Source of the DNA: Chloroflexota bacterium
GTDB lineage: Bacteria; Chloroflexota; Anaerolineae; Anaerolineales; UBA11579
Reading direction: 5' to 3'
DNA: 64,000 nucleotides
Assembly: GCA_013112575.1 (NCBI GenBank)
Contig: JABFGG010000006.1
Span: forward strand, 1 to 64,000
The position numbers were made by a program, and so were the translations under genes. Positions 1,318 through 47,906 of this stretch are shown here, piece after piece (the first letter of the stretch is position 1; each line of letters starts with the position of its first letter). The notes beneath the pieces are model-generated. The model saw nothing but the letters and a program-made list of their open reading frames with translations, had not been told where the DNA came from and ran no database searches.

Positions 1318-1704
1318 CTATGGCGGGGCCAGAGCCGCTTCAAATTGAGTTTGCATTTGCGCTTGAGTCTGTACGCCCAATCCGGTCCAAACAGTTTCAC
1401 CGTTAGGATTCAACATAACATAGCTGGGGTGCCCACGTAATTGAAATGACTTGTAAATCGGGTTACCAGTGGCGCTGTTTGCATCAATAAAGCGAAACTC
1501 GATTTCCGTGTTATATTCAGATTCGAGCCCATCCACGATGGGTTGCATTTGCGCTCATGGCGGTCAACCGTCTATATAAAAGTACAGAAAAGTCAGTTTG
1601 TCTGTGGCAGGTGTGACCAAGCCATTGGCGCCTGCCGATCCGCAAGCGCTGGCAAATAACACAAACAGCGCCAAAGGGAGGATTGCCGAAAGTCGTAGTC
1701 GCAT
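1318..1704 (-). CDS. Thioredoxin-fold lipoprotein with a UxxU (double selenocysteine) active site
   Basis: Read with two in-frame TGA codons as selenocysteine (1564-1566 and 1555-1557), this is a 128-residue protein. The ATG at 1704 lies 15 nt after the upstream gene. A lipoprotein signal ends in FASAC|G. The thioredoxin-like core reads FYIDGUPPUAQMQP, where family members have CPPC, and is followed by FRFIDAN and a cis-Pro type GHPSY motif. Apart from the two TGAs the frame is intact to a TAG stop. A hairpin with loop GTG lies 27 nt after the first TGA and 18 nt after the second. Seen: TGA at exactly both Cys positions. Known: bacterial Sec insertion needs a close downstream hairpin. Inferred: an extracytoplasmic selenoprotein reductase or oxidase. 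A pseudogene is the alternative but is unlikely. Confidence 0.78.
1528..1542 (-). promoter_or_regulatory. Putative bacterial SECIS hairpin of the UxxU gene
   Basis: On the minus strand, CCCATC (1542-1537), loop GTG (1536-1534) and GATGGG (1533-1528) form a perfect 6-bp stem with a 3-nt loop whose first base is G. The loop starts 27 nt after the first TGA and 18 nt after the second. Both fall in the roughly 16-37 nt range described for bacterial SECIS elements. Confidence 0.65.
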
Positions 1705-1719
1705 TAGTTCACTCCAATC

Positions 1720-2340
1720 TCATTGTGTGCTGCGTTCGAAGTTGCGCGCCAACCAACCAAAGTCCACGACGCCTATCTGAATGTCTTGAACGATTCCGCT
1801 CGGATCAATGAAATAGGTTGTGGGTGTTGAATAGAGTTGATACATCCCACCAATTGAACCATCGTTATCCATCAGAAATGGGCTGGTTAGACCGTACCGG
1901 CTTGCGAAGTCAAGAACCGGCTGAAGGGGTTCTTGTTCGTCAACAAATAGGATCGCCAGATCCTCCCCATAGGTTTCTTCGGCCGCCCGAAACTCGGGGG
2001 CATTTAGATTGCAAACCGGTCACCAACTGTGAAAGAACATGATGGCTATGGGCTTTCCCCTGAAATCGCTGAGCCCGGCTTTACTGCCCCGCGCTGTATT
2101 GAGGGAAAAATCCGGGGCGAGGGAGCCGATTTGTGGTCCTACGGGCAGATCTACTACTTCGGCTTCCGATTGATTGGTTGTCGAACCAGATCTGCCGCCG
2201 GAGAAAGCGAAAAACAGGACGCCAACAATTGCAGCAAGTATCCCGAAGCCCCAAAACAACCCTGATCGTTGCGCGTTTGCGCGACGTCTCTTAGTACGCT
2301 TCTTGTTGCTGCTTCTTGTGCTTTTCTTTCTTGCCATCAT
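1720..2340 (-). CDS. Membrane-anchored TlpA/redoxin-like selenoprotein (UxxC)
   Basis: A TGA at 2020-2022, read as selenocysteine, joins two halves of one 206-residue redoxin ending at TGA 1720-1722. Order: a very basic N-terminus (residues 1-25), one membrane anchor (about 28-47), then an AhpC/TlpA-type domain with the usual GSLAPDFSLNTARG entry, FRGKPIAIMFFHSW, the redox motif W-U107-P-V-C110, and an STPTTYFIDPSG cis-Pro and strand region. The TGA replaces the first Cys of WCPxC. A hairpin suited to Sec insertion follows. The gene sits between a DsbA-like gene (41 nt upstream) and the UxxU lipoprotein gene (15 nt downstream), so the cluster appears to run extracytoplasmic thiol chemistry. 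The start could be 2340 or 2337. Confidence 0.82.
1982..2001 (-). promoter_or_regulatory. Putative bacterial SECIS hairpin of the UxxC redoxin gene
   Basis: On the minus strand, GCCCCCGA (2001-1994) pairs with TCGGG-c-GGC (1990-1982, one bulged C) around loop GTT (1993-1991). That is about 8 bp with G as first loop base. The loop starts 26 nt after the TGA at 2022-2020, within the published bSECIS window. Confidence 0.65.
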
Positions 2341-2381: not shown

Positions 2382-3179
2382 TTAGGGGTTGGTGCCGTTG
2401 AGTTCACCTTCGATGACTTCGGCGAACGTGCTGAAAGGCTGCGCGCCAACCACCGCAATGCCGTTGATAAAAAAGGTTGGGGTTGAGCGAACACCTAACT
2501 GAGCAGCGAAATCCAGGTCCGCTTGCACTTCCTCACGATAGCGCCCGGTTTCAACGCATTCCTGAAACCCTTCCATGTCGAGCGCTAGCTCCTCTGCGTA
2601 CCGTATATAGGTTTCGGAGCTCAATGCCTGGGGGCCGCCGACAAATAGCTTATCGTGATACTCCCAGTATTGACCTTGCTCACCAGCGCAATTGGCGGCT
2701 TCGGCTGCAGGAAAGGCCTCTGGATGGATAGAGGTTAGTGGGAAATCTCGATATACGAAGCGCACCTCATCGCCGTAATTTTCAATAATCTGGGAAAAAG
2801 TGTCGTTATGGAAGCGAGTGCAGAAGGGACACTCAAAATCGCTGAACTCGATAATTGTGACGGGAGCATCCTCGTTGCCTAAAACGGGATCATCGTCAAC
2901 CGGGACATCGTAACGCGGCAATTCTTGTGGCTCGCTTGGAGAGACACCTGCTGATGTATCAACGCCCTGTGCTACGCTCGAGCTGGCCGTCTCTCTACCC
3001 CAAACAAAATATCCTGAACCAAGGCCAAGCAGGAAGACGATGGGTAGAAGAAGTGCAAAAATATGGGTACGTTTGAGCGTGATCGTGAAGGTTTCATCTT
3101 CTTCTAAAGGGTTATTCTCTACCTCCTGATCAAATGTTTGCTCTTCCATCTCGATTTGTTCTTGTTCCAATTCGCTCAT
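2382..3179 (-). CDS. DsbA-family thioredoxin-like protein, membrane anchored
   Basis: A 265-residue protein with an acidic N-terminus, one transmembrane anchor (about 39-60), a linker, and a DsbA/thioredoxin-4 domain starting near ENAPVTIIEFSD-like sequence. The redox motif is C117-P-F-C120 and the cis-Pro loop is STPTFFING. It should act outside the membrane as a thiol oxidase or isomerase. Unlike its two downstream neighbours, its redox residues are normal cysteines. It is 41 nt upstream of the UxxC redoxin gene and 50 nt downstream of the DUF2085 gene, all in one apparent operon. Homologues in this bacterial group are usually annotated DsbA-family or 'thioredoxin domain-containing'. Confidence 0.88.
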   Translation of the reverse strand: MSELEQEQIEMEEQTFDQEVENNPLEEDETFTITLKRTHIFALLLPIVFLLGLGSGYFVWGRETASSSVAQGVDTSAGVSPSEPQELPRYDVPVDDDPVLGNEDAPVTIIEFSDFECPFCTRFHNDTFSQIIENYGDEVRFVYRDFPLTSIHPEAFPAAEAANCAGEQGQYWEYHDKLFVGGPQALSSETYIRYAEELALDMEGFQECVETGRYREEVQADLDFAAQLGVRSTPTFFINGIAVVGAQPFSTFAEVIEGELNGTNP

Positions 3180-3229: not shown

Positions 3230-4006
3230 TTACTCAATTTCTATTGCCGTGTGCTGCAGACTTTCTAACTTGTCAAATCTCTTTTTGAATTTCTGAACTA
3301 CATCGGAAAAGGCCTCCTCCAAAACTGGAAAACCAAACCAGACAATGGCCAGACCGAACAAACTGCCTGTCAGGAGACGCATCCAGGAATTAAATGATCC
3401 CAATGCATCCCCGGCGTAAAATTCGCCTGGGAAAGCGTTGTTCGTGATCAGCGCCAACCAGGCGTTACTATCGCGAAAGCCCTGTCCTATACCCCAAAAG
3501 TCGCTAATCAAATGGGTTGTGCCATCCAACCCCATCGGCAGGATCAACAAAGCAAAAGCCCAAATCGGAAGAGACTTAATCCTGCGTCGCCATGGGTACC
3601 AAAGCCATGCAAAAATGAGGATGCTGGTGTACATGGATACCATGCGATCTGACCAGGCGACCTTCCATCCAAAAGCAGGGTCGCCGATAAACTGTCTCAG
3701 GACGAGTGGATTATTGGTCTGGGACCAGACGGCCTGAATTTCCTGTAGTGGGTACATTGTTGCTTTGCCGAATAAGAAGAAGGATCGTTGGGGTAGTTGG
3801 TGGCAAAGAAAGGTATAAATGCCATAAATGGTTTGTCCTAAAGATTCCCATCCGATTTGCATAAAAACCGGGGCGAGGAAAGGGAGACCGACATATAGCC
3901 CATAACCGAAGCTGAAAAGCCAGATCCAGTTTCGACTGATGTGGTAAATAGCTTTGCTGACATACAGGCTGTCGGCATTTGGTGAGTGAGTGGTTGACTC
4001 GGACAT
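3230..4006 (-). CDS. DUF2085 membrane protein
   Basis: A 258-residue polytopic protein with about six membrane segments. The FLCHQLPQRSFFLFG motif (about residues 87-101) is the signature of DUF2085 proteins; the second Cys motif of many members (CARCTG) is absent. Function is unknown. It lies 20 nt from the DUF3105 gene and just before the DsbA-like gene, consistent with co-transcription and an envelope redox or transport role. The His/Cys motif could bind a metal or haem, which is speculation. Confidence 0.75.
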   Translation of the reverse strand: MSESTTHSPNADSLYVSKAIYHISRNWIWLFSFGYGLYVGLPFLAPVFMQIGWESLGQTIYGIYTFLCHQLPQRSFFLFGKATMYPLQEIQAVWSQTNNPLVLRQFIGDPAFGWKVAWSDRMVSMYTSILIFAWLWYPWRRRIKSLPIWAFALLILPMGLDGTTHLISDFWGIGQGFRDSNAWLALITNNAFPGEFYAGDALGSFNSWMRLLTGSLFGLAIVWFGFPVLEEAFSDVVQKFKKRFDKLESLQHTAIEIE

Positions 4007-4026: not shown

Positions 4027-4617
4027 TCAAGGTGCGGTCGCTTCAGGTGCATTCCGCCAATTGCTCTGGATAAAATTGCGCGCTTGTCGTGCATTAAATG
4101 TATCCATTTCAAGCAAGTAACCCCATGATGTAAGGGCAAGCGGCACATCCGTCGAATCCCAGGGGAGCGCAATAAGTTTGGAGTATGACGACGTCGACAT
4201 AAAGTTTCGAATATCTGACTTCAATTCCGCGCACTCAGCTTCCTCCAATATGGTGCAGTTGTACCAAAACACAATATATCCGTGTTCCAGATTATGAACA
4301 GCACCGCCTTCAGGGAAAGGAGGGAGATTGGGTAGGTCTGATTCGTCAAAAAAACCACGATCAAGCCCTCGGGCGTAATGGGGCCCCGAGGTGGGTGGAT
4401 TGGAGTTGTAGCCGGTTGGTTCGATTCCATCGTCGATATGGTCGGGAGACAGAATGGGATAAGGATCGCCAACGGGTGGTCGTATAGTGTTCCATACACC
4501 CAAGCCAATAACAGCCAGCACTGCGATTCCGACTCCTCCCCAGATGAGACGCGTACGCCATTGTTGCCTATTCCGGCGAGCTTGCCGGGCTTCACGTTTT
4601 GATTTCAGATTGCTCAA
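4027..4617 (-). CDS. DUF3105 protein, membrane anchored (paralogue 1)
   Basis: 196 residues: a basic N-terminus, one membrane anchor (about 27-46), then an extracytoplasmic DUF3105 domain with both hallmark motifs, YNSNPPTSGPHY and VHNLEHGYIVFWYNC. The conserved histidines suggest metal binding but no activity is established for the family. It lies 23 nt after the L,D-transpeptidase gene in the same direction. A paralogue at 6080-6676 has lost two of the histidines. Confidence 0.85.
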   Translation of the reverse strand: MSNLKSKREARQARRNRQQWRTRLIWGGVGIAVLAVIGLGVWNTIRPPVGDPYPILSPDHIDDGIEPTGYNSNPPTSGPHYARGLDRGFFDESDLPNLPPFPEGGAVHNLEHGYIVFWYNCTILEEAECAELKSDIRNFMSTSSYSKLIALPWDSTDVPLALTSWGYLLEMDTFNARQARNFIQSNWRNAPEATAP

Positions 4618-4640
4618 ATTTTAATGCTCCATTTTGCTAG

Positions 4641-5780
4641 TTATGCACCACCAGAGCCATATAATGCAGGATCCGTTGGCGTTTCTCCACTAGGGTCCCA
4701 TACATAAACCCAGTCACCTTCTTGTGCCCAGTTGAAGATCCATTGGGCATCACCAGGTGACAGATTGACACAGCCGCGTGAACGCGGCACGCCGAAACCA
4801 TTGTGCCAGTACGTCCCATGTAAGGCGCGGGCTTCATCGAAATACATTGTCCAGGGCACATCTTCTAGATAGTAATAATCTGAGCGATCTGCTGTAAATG
4901 AACCGCTCATGGTTTCGGTTTCTTTCATTAAATAGATCTGGAAGAGACCTGGTTGGGTCCATGTTCCCGGAAGGCCAGTTGAAATCACAGTAGCGAAGAC
5001 GAGCTGTCCTGCTTCATAAACTGCCAGTGACTGGTCAGCAAGATTAACTTCGATCCAACGATCGTTATCCACGCCGTCGGGTGCTGTTGTGTTTGGTGTT
5101 ACCCTGGATACCTGCCGCCCATCCAGCCATTGGTTGGGGCCGACACGAAACCATTCCACCCCTCCGACAAAAGTGGTTTCGTAGATTTCTACCGGATCGT
5201 ATTGCCAGAAATCATAGCGCTCCGGTTCATCGTATACAATGCCCGGTTCTGGCGAAGCTTGCATTGGATACAATGCCCACCCAAACGGACGAGCTGGTGT
5301 TTCATAGAAGCCAAAGCCTTGAAAGTCTGGCGCATACACTCTTGAGACTCCATCCGCGTGCATCCATACGCCCGGGGCAATCATGTAAAACTTTTTGCCT
5401 TCGACCTCAGCAAAGTCGATATAGGTGATGAAATCAAAGCCAGGCTCAATATAACGATATACAGGTTCGCCAGCGACAGCAGCATCCAGAGAAAGATAGA
5501 GCGGGATACTTGTTTTGTTTACGCGGCCATAATAATACGGCAGGTAGGATAATTCTGTATCTAGCGTATAGCTGGGCAAAGAGACAGAACCAACTTGTGA
5601 ATCAGGCTCAATTGGTGGGGGATCTTCGCTTACCTCAAGGGGAATACAATCTGTTTGGATTGGGGCATAAATATTTGGAAGACAGGGTCTATCACCATTA
5701 TGATTCTGTGCAAAAGTGGGCGTCGGTGCAATAACAATAATTGAAATCAGCACAATGGCTAGGATGTAGTAACGCCTCAT
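4641..5780 (-). CDS. L,D-transpeptidase (YkuD domain), secreted
   Basis: 379 residues. A signal peptide ends near PTFAQ, SH3-like repeats fill roughly residues 95-245, and a C-terminal YkuD domain starts at RWIEVNLADQSLAVY. The active-site block is ALHGTYWHNGFGVPRSRGC337VNLS, with catalytic Cys337 and the two conserved His. These enzymes form 3-3 peptidoglycan cross-links or attach proteins to peptidoglycan. It appears to be the first gene of the minus-strand operon running to position 1, since a strong promoter module lies at 5909-5979. A Tat-exported paralogue is at 23241-24344. Confidence 0.9.
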   Translation of the reverse strand: MRRYYILAIVLISIIVIAPTPTFAQNHNGDRPCLPNIYAPIQTDCIPLEVSEDPPPIEPDSQVGSVSLPSYTLDTELSYLPYYYGRVNKTSIPLYLSLDAAVAGEPVYRYIEPGFDFITYIDFAEVEGKKFYMIAPGVWMHADGVSRVYAPDFQGFGFYETPARPFGWALYPMQASPEPGIVYDEPERYDFWQYDPVEIYETTFVGGVEWFRVGPNQWLDGRQVSRVTPNTTAPDGVDNDRWIEVNLADQSLAVYEAGQLVFATVISTGLPGTWTQPGLFQIYLMKETETMSGSFTADRSDYYYLEDVPWTMYFDEARALHGTYWHNGFGVPRSRGCVNLSPGDAQWIFNWAQEGDWVYVWDPSGETPTDPALYGSGGA

Positions 5781-5908
5781 ACGTGTAAGCTAGCTCCTTT
5801 TTCTCCGGCGAAAATATCGCAATTTAGTGCAATTGGATCGCATAATCAGTAGGTCGAGAGGCTGAACAATGCTTTTTACAACAATTAGACATACTCTCAC
5901 GTGTAATC

Positions 5909-5979
5909 AGTATAGCTAAGGGAATTGCAATCCCACACCGCTATATGACGGGTTTGCGCGATAGGCAAAATAGCCTATT
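5909..5979 (-). promoter_or_regulatory. Promoter/operator module P1 upstream of the L,D-transpeptidase operon
   Basis: On the minus strand the order is a palindromic operator (5960-5979, +strand gATAGGC-N6-GCCTATt), a second imperfect palindrome with CCGCTATATGACGG (5938-5951), and a TATACT -10 box (5909-5914). The gap between operator and -10 is exactly 45 nt, as in four other copies in the window. It also covers most of what the 299-nt intergenic region 5781-6079 holds. Confidence 0.7.
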
Positions 5980-6079
5980 AAATCCGGGTTCCTCCGGATC
6001 AGCGGGTACATCAATCTGGGAAGTAAATCAGGGAGTAAAATTAATTCATGAATGCTCTCTTGGCACCAGTAGAAAATAA

Positions 6080-6676
6080 TCAAGGGGCAGTCGCTTCGGG
6101 AGCGTGTCTCCAATTGCTATGGATGAAATTAATTACATCGCCTCCTTTAAAACTTTCCATTTCAAGTAAATATCCCCAGGAAGTTAGCACTAGCGGAACA
6201 TCTGTCGTGTCCCAAGGGAGTGCGACTAGCTTAGCGTAGGCAGAATCGCTAATCAAGAAACGAATGTCGTCCTTCAATTCTTCGCAACTATTCTCATCTA
6301 CCAGCTCACAGTTGTACCAAAACACGATATACCCCTCCTCCATATTTTTAACAGCGGCTGCTTCTGGAAAGTATGGGAGATCGGGCAAATCTGATTGATC
6401 ATAAAATCCGGGATTAAGTCCTTGATCATAGTGTGGGCCTGAAGTTGGCGGATTAGAGTTGTAGGCGGGGGGCCTAATTTCGCCCGGTAGATGTTCTGAA
6501 TCCATTATCGGATAAGATTGACCAATGGGTGGTCGATATGAATTCCAGGTGGCTAACAATATTAGGCCCCCTGCTAAAATTAGCGACCCAGACCATATCA
6601 GACGTTTTTGGACTTGTTGCTTTCGCCTGCGTACTTGCCAGGATTCGCGGTTGGCATTCTGGTTTATCAGCCACAT
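6080..6676 (-). CDS. DUF3105 protein, membrane anchored (paralogue 2, His-depleted)
   Basis: 198 residues, same layout as the protein at 4027-4617: basic start, one membrane anchor (about 25-45), DUF3105 domain with YNSNPPTSGPHY. The second motif reads VKNMEEGYIVFWYNC, so both histidines of the usual VHNLEHG are replaced (Lys and Glu). It is about 60% identical to paralogue 1 by eye. It has its own copy of the shared promoter module (6821-6891). Loss of the histidines suggests a changed or lost metal site while the fold is kept. Confidence 0.82.
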   Translation of the reverse strand: MWLINQNANRESWQVRRRKQQVQKRLIWSGSLILAGGLILLATWNSYRPPIGQSYPIMDSEHLPGEIRPPAYNSNPPTSGPHYDQGLNPGFYDQSDLPDLPYFPEAAAVKNMEEGYIVFWYNCELVDENSCEELKDDIRFLISDSAYAKLVALPWDTTDVPLVLTSWGYLLEMESFKGGDVINFIHSNWRHAPEATAP

Positions 6677-8340: not shown

Positions 8341-8629
8341 ATGGAGTTTAAACAGTCTTTTGCTAGTGCAATTGATTATCTTGTGATTCCCACATCAATT
8401 GGGCCGGAAGTTCCAAGCAATTCACTTGTAATTAATCGGCCATATTGCCGATTGGTCAACCCAGCCAAATAGCGGTGTTGCCATGTCACGCCCGTAGCTA
8501 TACTACCAATAATCTCCACAAGCAGCTATGGTAGTTAATCGATCTAAGCTGCTGATATTCCATTTTGCGGCTTGCGAATTGTGATAAGGCATGGATGACA
8601 ATTTCTGGGAAGAACGTCAAAGTTCTGAT
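8341..8629 (+). repeat. Direct repeat, copy A (about 290 bp)
   Basis: Matches 10795-11084 over its whole length with scattered substitutions and one 1-nt indel (roughly 85% identity by eye). It carries the P3 promoter module, a leader of about 80 nt and the first codons of an open reading frame (MDDNFWEERQ). In copy B the same sequence starts an intact methyltransferase gene; here it is joined to a cytochrome-like fragment. With P3 and the start of the next gene it accounts for the 387-nt gap 8204-8590. Confidence 0.85.
8434..8504 (+). promoter_or_regulatory. Promoter/operator module P3
   Basis: Operator AATCGGC-CATATT-GCCGATT (8434-8453), with perfect 7-bp arms that carry a compensating change on both sides compared with the other copies. 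TATACT is at 8499-8504, 45 nt after the operator. It drives the chimeric gene at 8591. Confidence 0.72.
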
Positions 8630-9067
8630 GAGGAACCACAAGACGGTATTGTTCCAACAGGGCACGGCTTCACGATCACGCCCGCAACGTGCGTAGCCAG
8701 TTATACAGACGCTTTGCATGCCGGCTTCTCCTTGCCAGGATACACACATCCGAGCCAGGAAGAAGTTGACTCTGAAGGCCAACCTGAGTTGCTGACCGAA
8801 GACACGCAAGCCGCCCTTGTGGTTGGAGAAGGCCAACTTACTGAGCAGCAACGGGTCCAGGTCTTGGAAGCGGCGGCGGCCAGTCGAAATCTTTCTGTTC
8901 TTTTCCAGGGTGGCATCATTGGTTTGGTATTAGGCAGCTCAACGGCCTGGTTGATTTTGAGCAACCTGCGTCTTCGAGAGCAACAGAATCAAAATGGAGC
9001 CCAAGAATGGCAGAAAATGCCAAAGAGTCAAAACAGGCTGAACCGCTCCTCTCCCGACGGGACGTAG
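8591..9067 (+). pseudogene. Chimeric, haem-less cytochrome c fragment with C-terminal membrane anchor
   Basis: 158 residues. The first 14 (MDDNFWEERQSSDE) come from the repeat and match the methyltransferase start at 11046. The body then resembles a multihaem cytochrome subunit: GHGFTITPATCVASYTDALHAG looks like a CVACH haem site in which CH has become SY. There is a hydrophobic anchor near residues 106-125 (VLFQGGIIGLVLGSSTAW). No CxxCH motif remains. The last 20 residues run into the next gene in another frame (61-nt overlap). I read it as a decayed cytochrome subunit of the adjacent NrfD-type complex with a replaced promoter and start. Whether it is expressed is unknown. Confidence 0.55.
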
Positions 9068-9375
9068 TAAAGATCGCTGGCGCGACCGTGGGAGCAGTAG
9101 CTGTTACTGACCTGGTTGCCACTGGGCCACTTTCACCTGGAGAGATCCAGGGCATCGACCGCGGTGTAGAGCAGGGGCTTGTACCTGGTGAGGATGTGCA
9201 GGCCACACCTGCCTGTGTGAACGTGTGCCCGGTTGGCGCACGCGTATTTGGCGATATAAAGAATCCCGAATCCAAACTTTCGCAATATCTGGATGCCAAC
9301 GACACTTTCCGGTTGCGGGAAGACTTTGGTACCGAACCGAAAGTACATTCCGTGCGCCTAGAGAGCGAGGTCTAA
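9007..9375 (+). pseudogene. NrfC/HybA-type ferredoxin subunit with large internal deletion
   Basis: 122 residues. The N-terminus is a Tat signal (SRRDVVKIAGATVGAVAVT). The C-terminus is that of a NrfC/HybA-like [4Fe-4S] subunit: VEQGLVPGEDVQATPACVNVCPVGARVFGD and the NPESKLSQYL tail (cited as family landmarks). About 100-150 residues that normally hold the other Cys clusters are missing, leaving only two cysteines, too few for any 4Fe-4S cluster. The gene ends 1 nt before the NrfD-like start. Deletion in frame means a short protein can still be made, but it cannot conduct electrons. Confidence 0.7.
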
Positions 9376-10794: not shown

Positions 10795-11084
10795 ATGGAG
10801 TCTAGACAGTCTTTTGCTAGTGCAATTGATTAATTTGCGATTTCCACATCCATTGGACCGGCAAGTTCCGAGCAATTCACTTGTAATTAATAGGCCATAT
10901 TGCCTATTGGTCAACCCCGCCATATAGCGGTGTTGCCGTGTCACGCCCGTAGCTATACTGCCAATAATCTCCACAGGCAGCTATGTTAGTTAATCGATGT
11001 AAACTGCTGATATTCCATTACTAGGCTTGCGTATTGTGATTAGATATGGATGATAATTTTTGGGAAGAACGTCAAAGATCTGAT
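10795..11084 (+). repeat. Direct repeat, copy B (about 290 bp)
   Basis: Partner of 8341-8629. It contains promoter module P4, the leader and the first 13 codons of the methyltransferase gene. The two copies bracket the decayed NrfC/D locus, a layout expected if a promoter-start segment was duplicated and recombined. The rest of the 433-nt gap 10613-11045 shows only a small hairpin-like stretch near 10680. Confidence 0.85.
10889..10959 (+). promoter_or_regulatory. Promoter/operator module P4 upstream of the methyltransferase
   Basis: Operator AATAGGC-CATATT-GCCTATT (10889-10908), inner palindrome CCGCCATATAGCGG (from 10917), TATACT at 10954-10959. The spacing of 45 nt equals the other copies. 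Confidence 0.72.
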
Positions 11085-11750
11085 AGTGAATGGTTTGATC
11101 AGAAATACCAATTTGAGGACTATCCACGGCATGAGGTTCATGATCGTTCATTTGTCCGGGCGATTATTCACAAACTACAACCACGACTTCCTAGTAAATT
11201 GCTCGATTTGGGCTGCGGGTTAGGCTGGTACTCTTATCTTTTTTCCCAAGCGGGGTTTGAAGTCACAGGAGCAGACATGAGCCCAGTGGGTATCCAAGGT
11301 GCCCAAAACTTATACCCAACCGAGGAAATCGACTGGGTAGTGGGCGATGGCCTAAAATTGGATTTCCATCATGAATTCGATATAGTACATGTTAGCAATT
11401 TCAGTCCCTTTACGATGGTGGATAGTTTAGAAACTGAGCAGGCGAAGTTAATTTCAGGCCAAATCATGCGATATCTTAAACAAAATGGTTTGTTAGTCTT
11501 TGTTTGGAATAGTCGGTTAGATGAGAGCGATCCTCAAGGCACTTGGGCTAATTATTCCATCAAGCAGATTGCACGCTACTTTGAAGCGGTAGAGAATGCC
11601 AATTATTTGGGGACATGGGCTACACACTCTCAACTGAGCACATTATTTGGGTCATGTTCCTTGAGCAACTTCGTAACACAATTGACTGCCGCTGGGGCAA
11701 GGTTTCATTCTAAAACAGCACGTATTGTGGCAGCTGTACAGAAATTGTGA
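11046..11750 (+). CDS. Class I SAM-dependent methyltransferase
   Basis: 234 residues with a clear Rossmann SAM-binding site: LLDLGCGLGWYSYLFSQAG (motif I, about residues 54-72), VTGADMSPVGIQGAQ (acidic loop) and FDIVHVSNFSPF (motif post II). Substrate cannot be told from sequence. The gene is single, under promoter P4. Its first residues MDDNFWEERQ are shared with the chimeric reading frame at 8591 because both lie in the 290-bp repeat. Confidence 0.85.
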   Translation: MDDNFWEERQRSDSEWFDQKYQFEDYPRHEVHDRSFVRAIIHKLQPRLPSKLLDLGCGLGWYSYLFSQAGFEVTGADMSPVGIQGAQNLYPTEEIDWVVGDGLKLDFHHEFDIVHVSNFSPFTMVDSLETEQAKLISGQIMRYLKQNGLLVFVWNSRLDESDPQGTWANYSIKQIARYFEAVENANYLGTWATHSQLSTLFGSCSLSNFVTQLTAAGARFHSKTARIVAAVQKL

Positions 11751-44091: not shown

Positions 44092-44904
44092 ATGAGCTTT
44101 GAATTGAGCTATCGTCCAACACAAACAAAAATTAAGCACCATATATTGGACCAATATCTAAAGGCGTGGGGTGGCATCATTGTGAACGGTTCTCGTAATC
44201 AAGCCCGCCTCGCAAGAGAAAAAGGCAATGACTTTGCTGTGCATTTTGTATATGTCGATTGCAACGCCTATGCTGGCCGATATTTGGGGGAGCAAGAGGA
44301 AATCGCATCAGGTGAAACGCCAACTACAGTTTTCGGTTCCCCAATAGTTGGTGTTGAGGCCCTGGATTCGCTGGTCTCCTATGGAAATGAACAGGAAGTT
44401 CCCGTCAAGGTGAACGCGATATTGATAGAGGAAGATAGGGAAACCTATGATGAGTTGATGGCCTCACTAAAGCTTGCTGACCTGGATAACCGGGCACGGG
44501 AGACACAAGATTTTGGAAGCCTGCTCAACAAAGAAATCGCCATTCTTCATCGAGATTCTTTGGATCTGGTATCGGACCTGGTTCAGTACACGCAGGAAGG
44601 CTTCAAATTCTCACTCTATTTTCTTGATCCTTATGGTCCTAAGGGGATCCCAATAGGCTTTGTCAGGAAGATCGTACAACAAGAAAGGCATGACACAATC
44701 ATAAACATGCCATACCAAGCGTTACATCGCCGAACCGGCAGCGTGATGAAGCAGAACCCCACAGATGAGGAACGAAAGCTGGTTGAACATTTTGATGATA
44801 TGTTTGGCAATAGTGAATGGCAGAAGTCCGCCAAACAGCTTGAAGAAGAGATCACCTGGAAAGAGATACTGGAGGAAGCAACAGGGATAGAAGGAGGGGT
44901 ATAA
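44092..44904 (+). pseudogene. TcmP-like (three-Cys-motif partner) gene, 3' end replaced by a Tn3 inverted repeat
   Basis: 270 residues. The N-terminal part matches TcmP proteins: KIKHHILDQYLKAWGGII, VYVDCNAYAGRYLG (in place of YIDxFAG), and the FSLYFLDPYGPKGIP motif (about 179-193), a methyltransferase-like fold. The last codons and the stop (GGA GGG GTA TAA) lie inside the Tn3-type terminal repeat that starts at 44896, so the natural C-terminus is missing. The matching three-Cys-motif partner is not in the window. Probably a non-functional defence gene. Confidence 0.65.
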
Positions 44905-44933
44905 CCAACATACGTGTAAAAACCAGACATAGC
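44896..44933. repeat. Tn3-family terminal inverted repeat (left end)
   Basis: Begins GGGGTATAACCAACATAC, lies 18 nt beyond the tnpA stop and points into the transposon, the usual position for the end next to tnpA. I found no matching copy to the right of tnpA up to about 53 kb, so the other end is either lost, diverged or farther away. Confidence 0.65.
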
Positions 44934-44951
44934 ATACATTTGTTCTAGAAA

Positions 44952-47906
44952 TCATGCTGTTAGCAGCGAATATTCTACGGGTTCTGGGACTTTTTCCATA
45001 TTAAGTACGTAGTCTCCGAAGCGGCGAATATGACCTGTCAAGTAGGGACTCAATATCGAGAGCGTTTCTGCAGACACACTATATCCCTCCTTTTTTAGTT
45101 GTAGTAATACCTGTGTCATATCCACCACATTCTGGAGGATCATCGCATTTGCGACCAGATCATTGTACTTGATGCGTTTTTCTTGCTCGATGGGGTCATT
45201 GTGAGCGATGATGCCGTGCCCTCCAAAGAATAGCCATTTTGAGAAGCCATGATATGCCTCCGCTTTGTTGGTGTAGGCCGTGATCTGCCTACGAAGGGAC
45301 ATGTCTGAGATGTAGCGCAACAGGAATGCGGTGCGGACCACGCGCCCTAATTCGCGAAAGGCGCGGTATAGGCGATTCTTATGACTGTAGGTCCCTAACT
45401 TGCGCAAGACCGTGGAGGGCATCAACACGCCAGCTTTGATCGACAATGTGACCTGCATAAGATCTTCCCAGTGCGTTTCGATCAATTTCCAATCGATCTT
45501 CCCGCTGAAGAGGGTATCAATATGCTTGTATCTTCTGCGGCCATCTGGCTTGTATAAATTAAGTCCTTGCCATTGACGAATGCGCGGCATGAGCTGAATT
45601 CCTAAGATGTGGGCAAGGCCAAACACTGGAGCTGACTGGCCCTGGGTGTCAGCATGAACTGTATCCGGTTGGATCTCGGAATGATTCTTGAGTAAGCCGT
45701 CAATTATATACACGGCTTCCCAAACACCAACTGAGATAAAGTGACTGAAGAGGGCGATATATTTATCGGAGACGTGGTGATAAGCTATGCCTCCATACCC
45801 ACCGTAGCGGACATGTCGTTCGGCTAATAAATTGTCTTGTAGTAGGTCGAATTGCGTACCATCAGCAGCAACGTGTTTGCCCGTCCCCCAATACCGCGGC
45901 AGATCAAAGCGATTATAGAAGTTGATCACGTCGCGGATCGCGGCGTCCAATTTTTCGGTCGTAATGTGTTGGCGGTTCAGGAAAGAAAGTGTACGCGCAT
46001 TAATAGTGTCCTGTGCATGACGGGCTGTTTGCGTTGGTCCTAGATTGCATCCATAGCTAAAGATGGTCATAAGGTAACGGAATGAAACATCTCGGATCTT
46101 GGGGTCTGAGCCAGAAGCCGGCCCAAAATGAGCTGCTAGGTCGACCCAATGCTGTACGTTGGCCAATCCATCCAATAGTTTTCTTTCAGGAATGCGGCGA
46201 AGTAATTCACTGCGAAGAATTTCAGCATTGTCGGAAACAGGTGCGCGTGAATAGCGCCTCAAACGGGGGTGGCCTTTATGGAAATAAACACCACTTTCTT
46301 CTGGCGGGATAGCGTCAACTTCTTCGGCAATTTCTCCTAGCCAGGATTTCAAATGGGAGACCAGCTCTTTCGGTTCAGTGGGCAGCCCAACCCCGGTACA
46401 GTGTTCTTTTAGCATGGGTTGGCATTCTTCCCAGCTTAGCAACTGGGCACGATAATCAGCGAAGTTTTTTGATCCGGGTACGAACAAGTCTCCAGTTTTC
46501 AACTCGGCTGCCAGGTAGGAAAACACACATACTTCCAAATGCCGTTTATGCAGCCAGAGAAGGCCATCTTCGCGTTTCTGGATAAGATTCAGCCATCGTG
46601 GAGTTGCGAAGCTAAGCTTAAGTTCTTCTGCTGGCAAGTATTTTCTGCGCATGTGACGATGATCGCGGATATACAGATAAGCCTCAGTGATTGACTCTTC
46701 ACTTGTGGATGACTTCAGATCTAAGGCGTCTACAAGGTCGAAGAGAACCGGTCGATACGACCGAAAGAACCGCCAAATTAGAGGGAAGTAATTATTTCCG
46801 TGATAGGCAGCAATGCTTTCGCACCCCTCCAAGAGGGCTTCGATGCCACCTTGCTCATTCAGGAAGTTTTCTACAAAGCCGCCCAGGGCCTCAGGCTGAT
46901 GGCCTTGTTGAGCATGCTGCAAGATCCCAGAAAGGACGTCGATCAACTCTTCTGTCATGCTCCTTTGCCGTTTGCGGATCTCTTCCAACTCTTCCTGGGC
47001 ACGTTTATGCAACGTGCCCATACGTTTGAGGAACATTTCAGCCAGATTATCGCGCGTGACTCCTGTAGCCGTATGCAGCACGGCGACCAATAAGGCATAG
47101 CGTTTTGGTGGTTTTAGGCGGCGGATGTAAAAAGGCTCATAAGCACGGGATTCTTGAGCGAAGAAGTAAATCTTCCCTCGTGGAATTTCTGCCAATACCC
47201 GGTCCGTATCAACCAGTCCTTGTAACCAGATCAGGCGTGCCTGCAACTCGCGCATGTGTCGCAAGGAGGAGCGCCCTGCAGGCTCTTTGAGAACTGTGAA
47301 GTCTGTGCGGCTGCGTCGATCCCTCAATTCAGGTAGCTTATCCAAGAGTTCGCGATCTCCAGAGGAAAGCCGACTACTGATAAGTGCGTACACATCCTTA
47401 TTGGCTTTGGCGCGAATACGCTTAACTAGGCGATCCAATTGAGAAAATGCTGGTAGTTCGAGTTTTTGCCGAATGAGTTCCTCGATGGCTGCATTGATGA
47501 TGTCCGCGGGGTCTCCCATGGTTATAGCCGCCTCTGTTGCAGCCTGTGCTGCGATCTTGGGCCCTCCTGCGCGGTATGGTCGCACACCTAGAAACTGGCG
47601 CACCGCGTCGCGATGGCGAAACTGAGTGCGCTCGTGCTCATATTGGAGTTCCGCGCCAGAGCCTAACTTTGCAGCATTGCGAATATGGTGGATGATCGAA
47701 TCGGGCACATTTTCTAAGGGAACGAAGTAGCCTAAGCGCTGGAAACATTTCAGTTGAATAAGCAAACTCAAGCGCAGGTCATCTTCACGCGCCATGTCAA
47801 CCGCGAATCGGATCTCTCTAGAATTTGGCGAGTAGGTGTGTTGTAGTTCCTTTTCAGAGATCGAAGTTCGAAAGCGCGGGTACGCGGTCCGCTCTATGGC
47901 TGTCAT
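44952..47906 (-). CDS. tnpA: Tn3-family transposase
   Basis: 984 residues, full length for the family. Catalytic residues of the DDE domain: Asp in AADGTQFD (about 681), Asp in VHADTQGQ (about 753), Glu in NKAEAYHGFSKWL (about 881), with the family landmarks YGGYGGIAYHHVSDKYIALFSHF before the second Asp (in part) and QNVVDMTQVL near the end. No tnpR resolvase gene is near. The gene looks intact, so the element may still move or may act in trans on the miniature element at 34762. Confidence 0.93.
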   Translation of the reverse strand: MTAIERTAYPRFRTSISEKELQHTYSPNSREIRFAVDMAREDDLRLSLLIQLKCFQRLGYFVPLENVPDSIIHHIRNAAKLGSGAELQYEHERTQFRHRDAVRQFLGVRPYRAGGPKIAAQAATEAAITMGDPADIINAAIEELIRQKLELPAFSQLDRLVKRIRAKANKDVYALISSRLSSGDRELLDKLPELRDRRSRTDFTVLKEPAGRSSLRHMRELQARLIWLQGLVDTDRVLAEIPRGKIYFFAQESRAYEPFYIRRLKPPKRYALLVAVLHTATGVTRDNLAEMFLKRMGTLHKRAQEELEEIRKRQRSMTEELIDVLSGILQHAQQGHQPEALGGFVENFLNEQGGIEALLEGCESIAAYHGNNYFPLIWRFFRSYRPVLFDLVDALDLKSSTSEESITEAYLYIRDHRHMRRKYLPAEELKLSFATPRWLNLIQKREDGLLWLHKRHLEVCVFSYLAAELKTGDLFVPGSKNFADYRAQLLSWEECQPMLKEHCTGVGLPTEPKELVSHLKSWLGEIAEEVDAIPPEESGVYFHKGHPRLRRYSRAPVSDNAEILRSELLRRIPERKLLDGLANVQHWVDLAAHFGPASGSDPKIRDVSFRYLMTIFSYGCNLGPTQTARHAQDTINARTLSFLNRQHITTEKLDAAIRDVINFYNRFDLPRYWGTGKHVAADGTQFDLLQDNLLAERHVRYGGYGGIAYHHVSDKYIALFSHFISVGVWEAVYIIDGLLKNHSEIQPDTVHADTQGQSAPVFGLAHILGIQLMPRIRQWQGLNLYKPDGRRRYKHIDTLFSGKIDWKLIETHWEDLMQVTLSIKAGVLMPSTVLRKLGTYSHKNRLYRAFRELGRVVRTAFLLRYISDMSLRRQITAYTNKAEAYHGFSKWLFFGGHGIIAHNDPIEQEKRIKYNDLVANAMILQNVVDMTQVLLQLKKEGYSVSAETLSILSPYLTGHIRRFGDYVLNMEKVPEPVEYSLLTA

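Follow-up and report, generated by a model that had tools for sequence, protein, structure and literature searches.

In a redox pair, selenocysteine (Sec, U) usually takes one place of the two. SelL carries the motif UxxU, and the extracytoplasmic reductant TlpA is a CxxC protein of a sequence family other than the one described here. The inventory of 119 prokaryotic selenoprotein families published in 2026 contains no UxxU thioredoxin in its Table 1 (PMC13188914). There, UxxU occurs in a Prx-like family, a metal-binding family and FmdB, and thioredoxin (PF00085) appears as UxxC with one Sec. The Prx-like UxxU is likewise found in PMC9312934 and PMC2398784, and a UxxU form of SELENOW occurs in an alga and in amphioxus (PMC7539508). 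The titles and abstract openings of the freely accessible literature on UxxU, diselenide, Chloroflexota and copper selenoproteins did not describe the family reported below, in which both positions of the pair appear to be Sec in dozens of related genes.

The gene studied here lies in the window, a stretch of 64,000 nucleotides of a Chloroflexota genome, and its product was compared with each of these systems. With the bacterial Sec-thioredoxin (PF00085, UxxC; PMC13188914) it shares the thioredoxin fold and Sec at the first position, but it differs by a second Sec, by being a predicted lipoprotein and by a His before the cis-Pro, and the Trp before the first Sec is absent in 61 of 62 aligned UxxU rows. 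With the Prx-like UxxC/UxxU oxidoreductase (PF00578; PMC13188914, PMC9312934; GOS Prx-like 2, PMC2398784) it has the UxxU motif in common; however, the window's protein gave no match to PF00578 (AhpC-TSA) at E 0.01, and the GOS set holds UxxU in several sequences (PMC2398784) as against dozens of genes of one group here. SelL has a diselenide in its redox motif, as is proposed for the present protein, and differs in being called Prx-like (PMC2398784). Neither the SelL-related model NF040769 nor the metal-binding UxxU model NF041115 was matched at E 0.01 by the window's protein or by 15 UxxU proteins. The Rcas_1661 family (NF041057) is by name a thioredoxin-like (seleno)lipoprotein; the window's UPPU protein did not match it, and a DsbA-like CPFC neighbour remained under its cut-off (132 of 190 bits). 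Finally, TlpA of Bradyrhizobium, extracytoplasmic and thioredoxin-like, is the reductant of ScoI and CoxB according to titles cited in PMC5909903, and we propose an analogous role.

The double-UGA gene, its homologues and the Sec machinery

A sequence-only reading had placed a thioredoxin-fold lipoprotein with two in-frame TGA codons at 1318-1704 without giving a strand. The gene was found on the minus strand, with the start ATG at 1702-1704 and the stop TAG at 1318-1320; frame 1 of the plus strand contained no such protein. With TGA read as Sec, the product has 128 aa (MRLRLSAILPLALFVLFASAC...FYIDG-UPPU-AQMQPIVDGLE...LRGHPSYV...AALAPP). The first Sec UGA codon (residue 47) lies at 1564-1566 and the second (residue 50) at 1555-1557, both on the minus strand, so that UPPU stands at residues 47-50, in the place of CxxC as had been read. 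The frame has exactly two TGAs, none elsewhere, and is otherwise intact up to its normal end, again in line with that reading. The CxxC active site of thioredoxin (PF00085) is missing, both positions being UGA. The lipoprotein signal was also recovered: a lipobox-like ASAC forms residues 18-21, and its Cys21 (codon at 1642-1644, minus strand) was invariant in alignments A1 and A4. The window's lipobox has Ala at -3 and is less canonical than the LSAC or LAAC of many homologues; with its signal peptide and lipobox Cys, the UPPU protein is a predicted lipoprotein.

The protein was used as query against 400 genomes of the order. The best match carried two TGAs in 15 genomes, the window's included, and these were the 15 top matches; the other 14 proteins were 33-50% identical to the window's. 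A profile of those 15 was searched against 396 genomes of the class, where the best 46 matches all had two TGAs and the 47th had one, and below that rank two-TGA, one-TGA and TGA-free matches were mixed. We fetched 80 stretches, comprising 64 with two TGAs and 16 with one or none, the latter from the upper part of the list. In all 64 two-TGA homologues both UGAs fell on the CxxC columns, an outcome opposite to the random stops at other positions that would have spoken against the gene. The other 16 stretches yielded 13 UxxC and 5 CxxC genes, and the ratio of 65:13:5 (UxxU:UxxC:CxxC) is an outcome of this selection and no frequency. Two-TGA matches in G596 and G580, many lower one-TGA or TGA-free matches, and order-search matches starting at residue 49, just past the first UGA (G388:C74, G078, G177 and G137:C13), were left out of the fetch; L050 (a duplicate of L023), a CVPC side match at L109 and a fragment at L109 lacking the motif were dropped. 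A patterned contig scan (CPPC active site) gave one locus, L050, whose protein is identical to that of L023, a locus of G184, which is a genome of the window's order.

Among the Sec-containing homologues the first codon was UGA in 78/78, and the second was UGA in 65/78 and Cys in 13/78; UGA thus stands at the redox positions and is either conserved or exchanged for Cys, the pattern by which a selenoprotein is recognised. The residues between the two Sec vary (AP, PP, PA, VP, GP and others). The UPPU gene is a real member of a new selenoprotein family, and we strongly infer that the living cell reads both UGAs as Sec. Databases may conceal the family, since standard gene calling would halt at the first UGA. 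UxxU genes were carried by 62 genomes. In a phylum sample of 400 genomes one UxxU gene outside the class was among the matches listed (G1092/L173, UIPU), and a plasmid search gave no match; the searches covered Chloroflexota genomes, the patterned contig scan and plasmids. The distribution looks patchy, since no other genome of the window's taxonomic family had a two-TGA match among the matches listed in the order search. UxxU centres had been called very rare; they are rare in print, but not among the sampled Anaerolineae. Related UxxC thioredoxin-like proteins were many (L035-L049, L170, L171, L178 and L181; for example FAFWUGTC...P-V-HGLE).

The machinery whose absence would have counted against Sec was present. 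The source genome (5.13 Mb, 44 contigs) contained selA (541.9 bits), selB (374.5 bits), selD (360.3 bits) and the tRNA-Sec gene selC (70.9 bits), each over its cut-off, and ARAGORN likewise called a tRNA-SeC. The selD of this genome (L018 1501-2433, contig C9) has an in-frame TGA itself and is probably a selenoprotein. Of the 42 window ORFs with 150 aa or more (overlaps removed), 14 terminated in TGA, and the code is therefore not reassigned; other window frames opened by TGA read-through (a Tn3 transposase, a methylase and CcmF) are merely closed by a TGA stop. Across the UxxU genomes, selA was over cut-off in 57/62, was present in partial form only in G500 and G445, and gave no match in G690, G692 and G702, which are 67%, 78% and 95% complete respectively. 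tRNA-Sec was over cut-off in G690, G500 and G445, and selB also in G500 and G445; in G692 neither was over cut-off. G702, a single contig with a UPPU gene (locus L109), had tRNA-Sec under cut-off and a sub-threshold selB match (194 bits, cut-off 242); its want of selA and tRNA-Sec may be read as loss of the machinery or as an assembly error. G702 and G692 count against the double-selenoprotein reading. Since selA is common across the phylum anyway (125/151 in the phylum sample versus 57/62 UxxU genomes, Fisher p 0.09), its presence adds little weight.

A hairpin within the coding sequence

A perfect hairpin with a G-first loop, said to follow the TGAs at 27 and 18 nt, was seen at 1528-1542 on the minus strand. 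It reads CCCAUC-GUG-GAUGGG, with 6 bp and a 3-nt loop (GUG, 1534-1536) that begins with G, at 27 nt from the first UGA and 18 nt from the second. This is a candidate coding-embedded bacterial SECIS (bSECIS), probably common to both UGAs. Among the published limits for a bSECIS are a stem of 4-16 bp, a loop of 3-9 nt with G in loop positions 1-2, a distance of 16-37 nt from the UGA and a minimum free energy of -7.5 or lower (PMC13188914). The window's hairpin falls inside these limits, with a borderline energy (-7.9 kcal/mol with flanks, -6.8 kcal/mol bare). Folding of the RNA after the TGAs gave a divided answer, in that the perfect hairpin is there but is absent from the minimum-energy fold of the 72 nt from the first UGA, taken alone. 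Single-sequence fold z-scores were weak as well, and the case for the hairpin therefore rests on covariation and codon freeze. Nothing in Rfam matched the window.

Covariation was measured over 78 Sec-containing sequences (65 UxxU and 13 UxxC; 76 distinct). The 6-bp hairpin was formed in 95.4% of cells. Double-changed cells numbered 35 versus 9.0 in shuffles (0/500), and the covariation score was 0.284 versus at most 0.116 when slid. Pairs changed on both sides were in mild excess (4 versus 2.9 shuffled, 27/500), and further pair types did not exceed the shuffles (8 versus 7.9). The loop CGTG was invariant in 78/78 Sec-containing sequences and occurred in 1/5 CxxC homologues (L156 only). The codons of the hairpin were frozen, with Val GTG in 78/78, Val GTC in 21/21, Ile ATC in 57/57, Gly GGG in 62/63 and Asp GAT in 27/27; farther downstream in the same genes the counts were GTG 34/88, ATC 31/59, GGG 11/50 and GAT 44/87. 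By these counts, selection acts on the hairpin at the RNA level.

The position of the hairpin was constant across the family, at 26-27 nt after the first UGA and 17-18 nt after the second. A suitable loop lay at 26-27 nt in 62/65 UxxU genes, where energy was the main miss, and one stem pair was broken in four UGPU genes. All four limits were satisfied for both UGAs by 37/65 UxxU genes, and by 10/13 UxxC and 0/5 CxxC genes; when the UxxU genes were resampled synonymously, 7, 9 and 7 of 65 did so. In the UxxC genes the loop was at 26-27 nt in 13/13, the same place as in UxxU genes, and the second UGA therefore apparently uses a SECIS already placed for the first. One hairpin probably serves both UGAs. 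This raises a question of translation, namely whether SelB is loaded twice by one SECIS for UGAs 9 nt apart; the UxxC relatives, whose hairpin occupies the corresponding position, supply natural controls. In the UxxC genes L170, L171, L178 and L181 a hairpin of similar kind was noticed by eye in the P-x-V-x-G codons.

Predicted thioredoxin fold and the histidine before the cis-proline

The thioredoxin fold suggested from the letters was predicted by AlphaFold2 (80-row alignment; pLDDT 89.5, pTM 0.77), with UPPU at the start of the first long helix of the model. The top PDB matches by Foldseek were thioredoxins, such as E. coli Trx 2trx_A, which is 24% identical (TM 0.81 by target length, 0.69 by query). 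The top Pfam match was TraF (PF13728; 32.4 bits, cut-off 23), ahead of Thioredoxin (PF00085; 29.7 bits, cut-off 23.5). The NCBIfam thioredoxin equivalog TIGR01068 gave 34.9 against a cut-off of 96.8, and the UPPU protein is therefore not a classical thioredoxin; none of the 8 NCBIfam matches of the window's protein at E 0.01 was over cut-off. Over 15 UxxU members, thioredoxin models were the commonest among the 14 families matched, and weak matches to selenoprotein models were found as well (HUIPC_Trx in 4, TsoX in 1).

We further compared the residues around the cis-Pro loop, which is recognised in the family by an invariant Pro93 in alignment A4 (62 UxxU, 13 UxxC and 5 CxxC rows; L084, L108 and L135 left out). 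The residue preceding it was His throughout the UxxU rows (62/62) but in none of the UxxC (0/13) or CxxC (0/5) rows, where Gln is most frequent. In the window, this His92-cisPro93 signature (1426-1431, minus strand; GHP in all 62 UxxU rows) adjoins the active site in the predicted fold. In a wider set, from which one motif-free fragment at L041 was dropped, His preceded the cis-Pro in 66/66 UxxU proteins versus 2/57 others, the latter being UxxC relatives, distant thioredoxin-like proteins and neighbouring TlpA genes, of which 7 were gapped at the His. One of the two cases was L046, counted as a CxxC row but in truth a misaligned different gene. Exceptions to the rule were L170 (UPVC, GHP) and L168 (CPFC, GHP), the latter outside the counted sets. 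The tie between UxxU and a His before the cis-Pro is a new observation here. On a tree of 123 rows and 92 columns (few for so many rows), with the trait columns left out, the UxxU label needed two changes; the found tree was 0.99 lnL better than one with a single UxxU clade, which was not rejected (p-AU 0.517). The double Sec is set in the best-studied redox scaffold, together with a His nearly always missing in the UxxC and CxxC relatives, and offers a natural test of what a diselenide gains over a selenenylsulfide.

Gene neighbourhood and proposed function

The next gene upstream (1720-2340, minus strand) encodes a TlpA/ResA-like selenoprotein with a UPVC centre (AhpC-TSA, 77.3 bits). Its Sec UGA codon (residue 107) lies at 2020-2022 on the same strand, and relatives at L083, L089, L090 and L091 have a UGA at the same place in the motif UQPC. 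A weak candidate hairpin, CCCGA-GTT-TCGGG, was found by eye 26 nt past this UGA; the computed fold ignores it (z +0.83). The same minus-strand cluster holds a DsbA-like (Thioredoxin_4) protein with CPFC (2382-3179), a DUF2085 membrane protein (3230-4006) and a DUF3105 protein (4027-4617), kinds found near 11, 11 and 10 of 64 UxxU loci respectively. At 4027-6676 (minus strand) a YkuD L,D-transpeptidase gene stands between two DUF3105 genes, and at L109 the UxxU gene likewise has a DUF2085 gene and a YkuD-gene relative nearby.

Neighbours were counted within 5 kb of 64 UxxU genes, L135 (a near copy of L129) being dropped. Labels came from Pfam scans of members, except for three clusters (a cytochrome, a regulator and a kinase) that were labelled by eye. 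Cytochrome c was found at 26 loci, P-type ATPase at 21, response regulator at 17, histidine kinase at 15, rhodanese at 5 and TlpA-like at 4; 51/64 loci had at least one of these or of the DsbA-like, DUF2085 and DUF3105 kinds, and two further clusters, at 6 and 5 loci, were cupredoxin-like. By direct tblastn, a P-type ATPase was present at 24/65 UxxU versus 0/16 UxxC/CxxC loci (Fisher p 0.002, uncorrected for kinship of the genomes), and all four ATPases tested were over the cut-off of the copper-translocating model TIGR01511. Contigs at the loci were often short (median 8.0 of 10 kb available). No P-type ATPase lies within 5 kb of the window's own locus, though the contig runs out 1.3 kb past the gene. 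The association of P-type ATPases with UxxU loci is a new observation here. The protein probably has a part in redox chemistry tied to copper or to cytochromes, on the outside of the cell membrane.

Taking together the gene, its conservation, the RNA hairpin, the machinery, the predicted fold, the His signature and the neighbourhood, all established by computation, we consider it likely that this is a double selenoprotein, decoded through one hairpin, which works as a diselenide reductase serving copper or cytochrome proteins. The thioredoxin-fold lipoprotein would be anchored to the cytoplasmic membrane from outside, with selenocysteine as both active-site residues. The ordinary bacterial Sec pathway (SelB and tRNA-Sec) would read both UGAs, and a single hairpin in the coding sequence, at a permitted distance from each, would direct both events. 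The mature protein would most likely be a reductase of the thiol-disulfide type, using a selenol pair or diselenide with the His beside the cis-Pro. It may act on copper and cytochrome proteins outside the cytoplasm, keeping their thiols or metal sites reduced or supplying them with electrons, much as TlpA does with Sco and CoxB.

The same His and neighbours can be read differently. The protein could be a selenium-based metal carrier, with Cu(I) or some other soft metal held by the selenolate pair and the neighbouring His on the outside of the membrane; we hold this to be unlikely. The carrier would take metal from, or pass it to, copper ATPases, cupredoxins or cytochrome oxidase, and redox cycling would be a secondary activity. 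This reading draws on the His before the cis-Pro in every UxxU protein of the wider set, with one genuine UxxC exception counted, on the presence of P-type ATPase, cupredoxin and cytochrome c genes around UxxU loci, on the lack of such an ATPase at all 16 UxxC/CxxC loci, and on the name of another published UxxU family, a metal-binding protein (NF041115). However, oxidoreductases are classically built on the thioredoxin fold with a conserved cis-Pro loop, 41/65 UxxU loci have no such ATPase within 5 kb (many on short contigs), and a CPFC protein has the same GHP (L168). A Cu(I) site made of U-x-x-U and this His, as a diselenolate-imidazole centre on a thioredoxin scaffold, appears unlikely as well. 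If true, it would mean a Sco/CopZ-like copper carrier or sensor with two Sec, using one SECIS for two UGAs 9 nt apart, Anaerolineae-wide.

A role in oxidative folding, with the UxxU protein as an oxidase or isomerase of secreted proteins acting with the DsbA-like, DUF2085 and other cluster genes, appears improbable. The DsbA-like gene adjoins the TlpA-like gene here and recurs in the counts above, but cytochrome c and P-type ATPase genes are the commoner neighbours. Diselenides are as a rule weaker oxidants than disulfides, which favours a reductase or a fast exchange catalyst. A pseudogene, a sequencing error or an altered code that gives UGA a different residue is very improbable and was rejected: G702 and G692 without selA would fit it, but the UGAs are fixed at both redox columns in 65 genes with conserved flanks, the coding-embedded hairpin is selected, and TGA is a normal stop in the window with no other TGA in the frame.

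Several minor features were noted elsewhere in the window. Two different ORFs at 8591-9067 and 11046-11750 (both plus strand) share a near-identical start, MDDNFWEERQ-S/R-SD; the second is methyltransferase-like by eye, and the pair resembles a partial duplication or a rearranged start. At 9007-9375 (plus strand) lies a short Tat-signal protein whose match to Fe-S subunits (ArrB/QrcC) is confined to their C-terminal part; its middle is missing, possibly by deletion, and it lies upstream of an NrfD/QrcD-like subunit. A Tn3-family transposase (732 bits) at 44634-47906 (minus strand) marks a mobile element.
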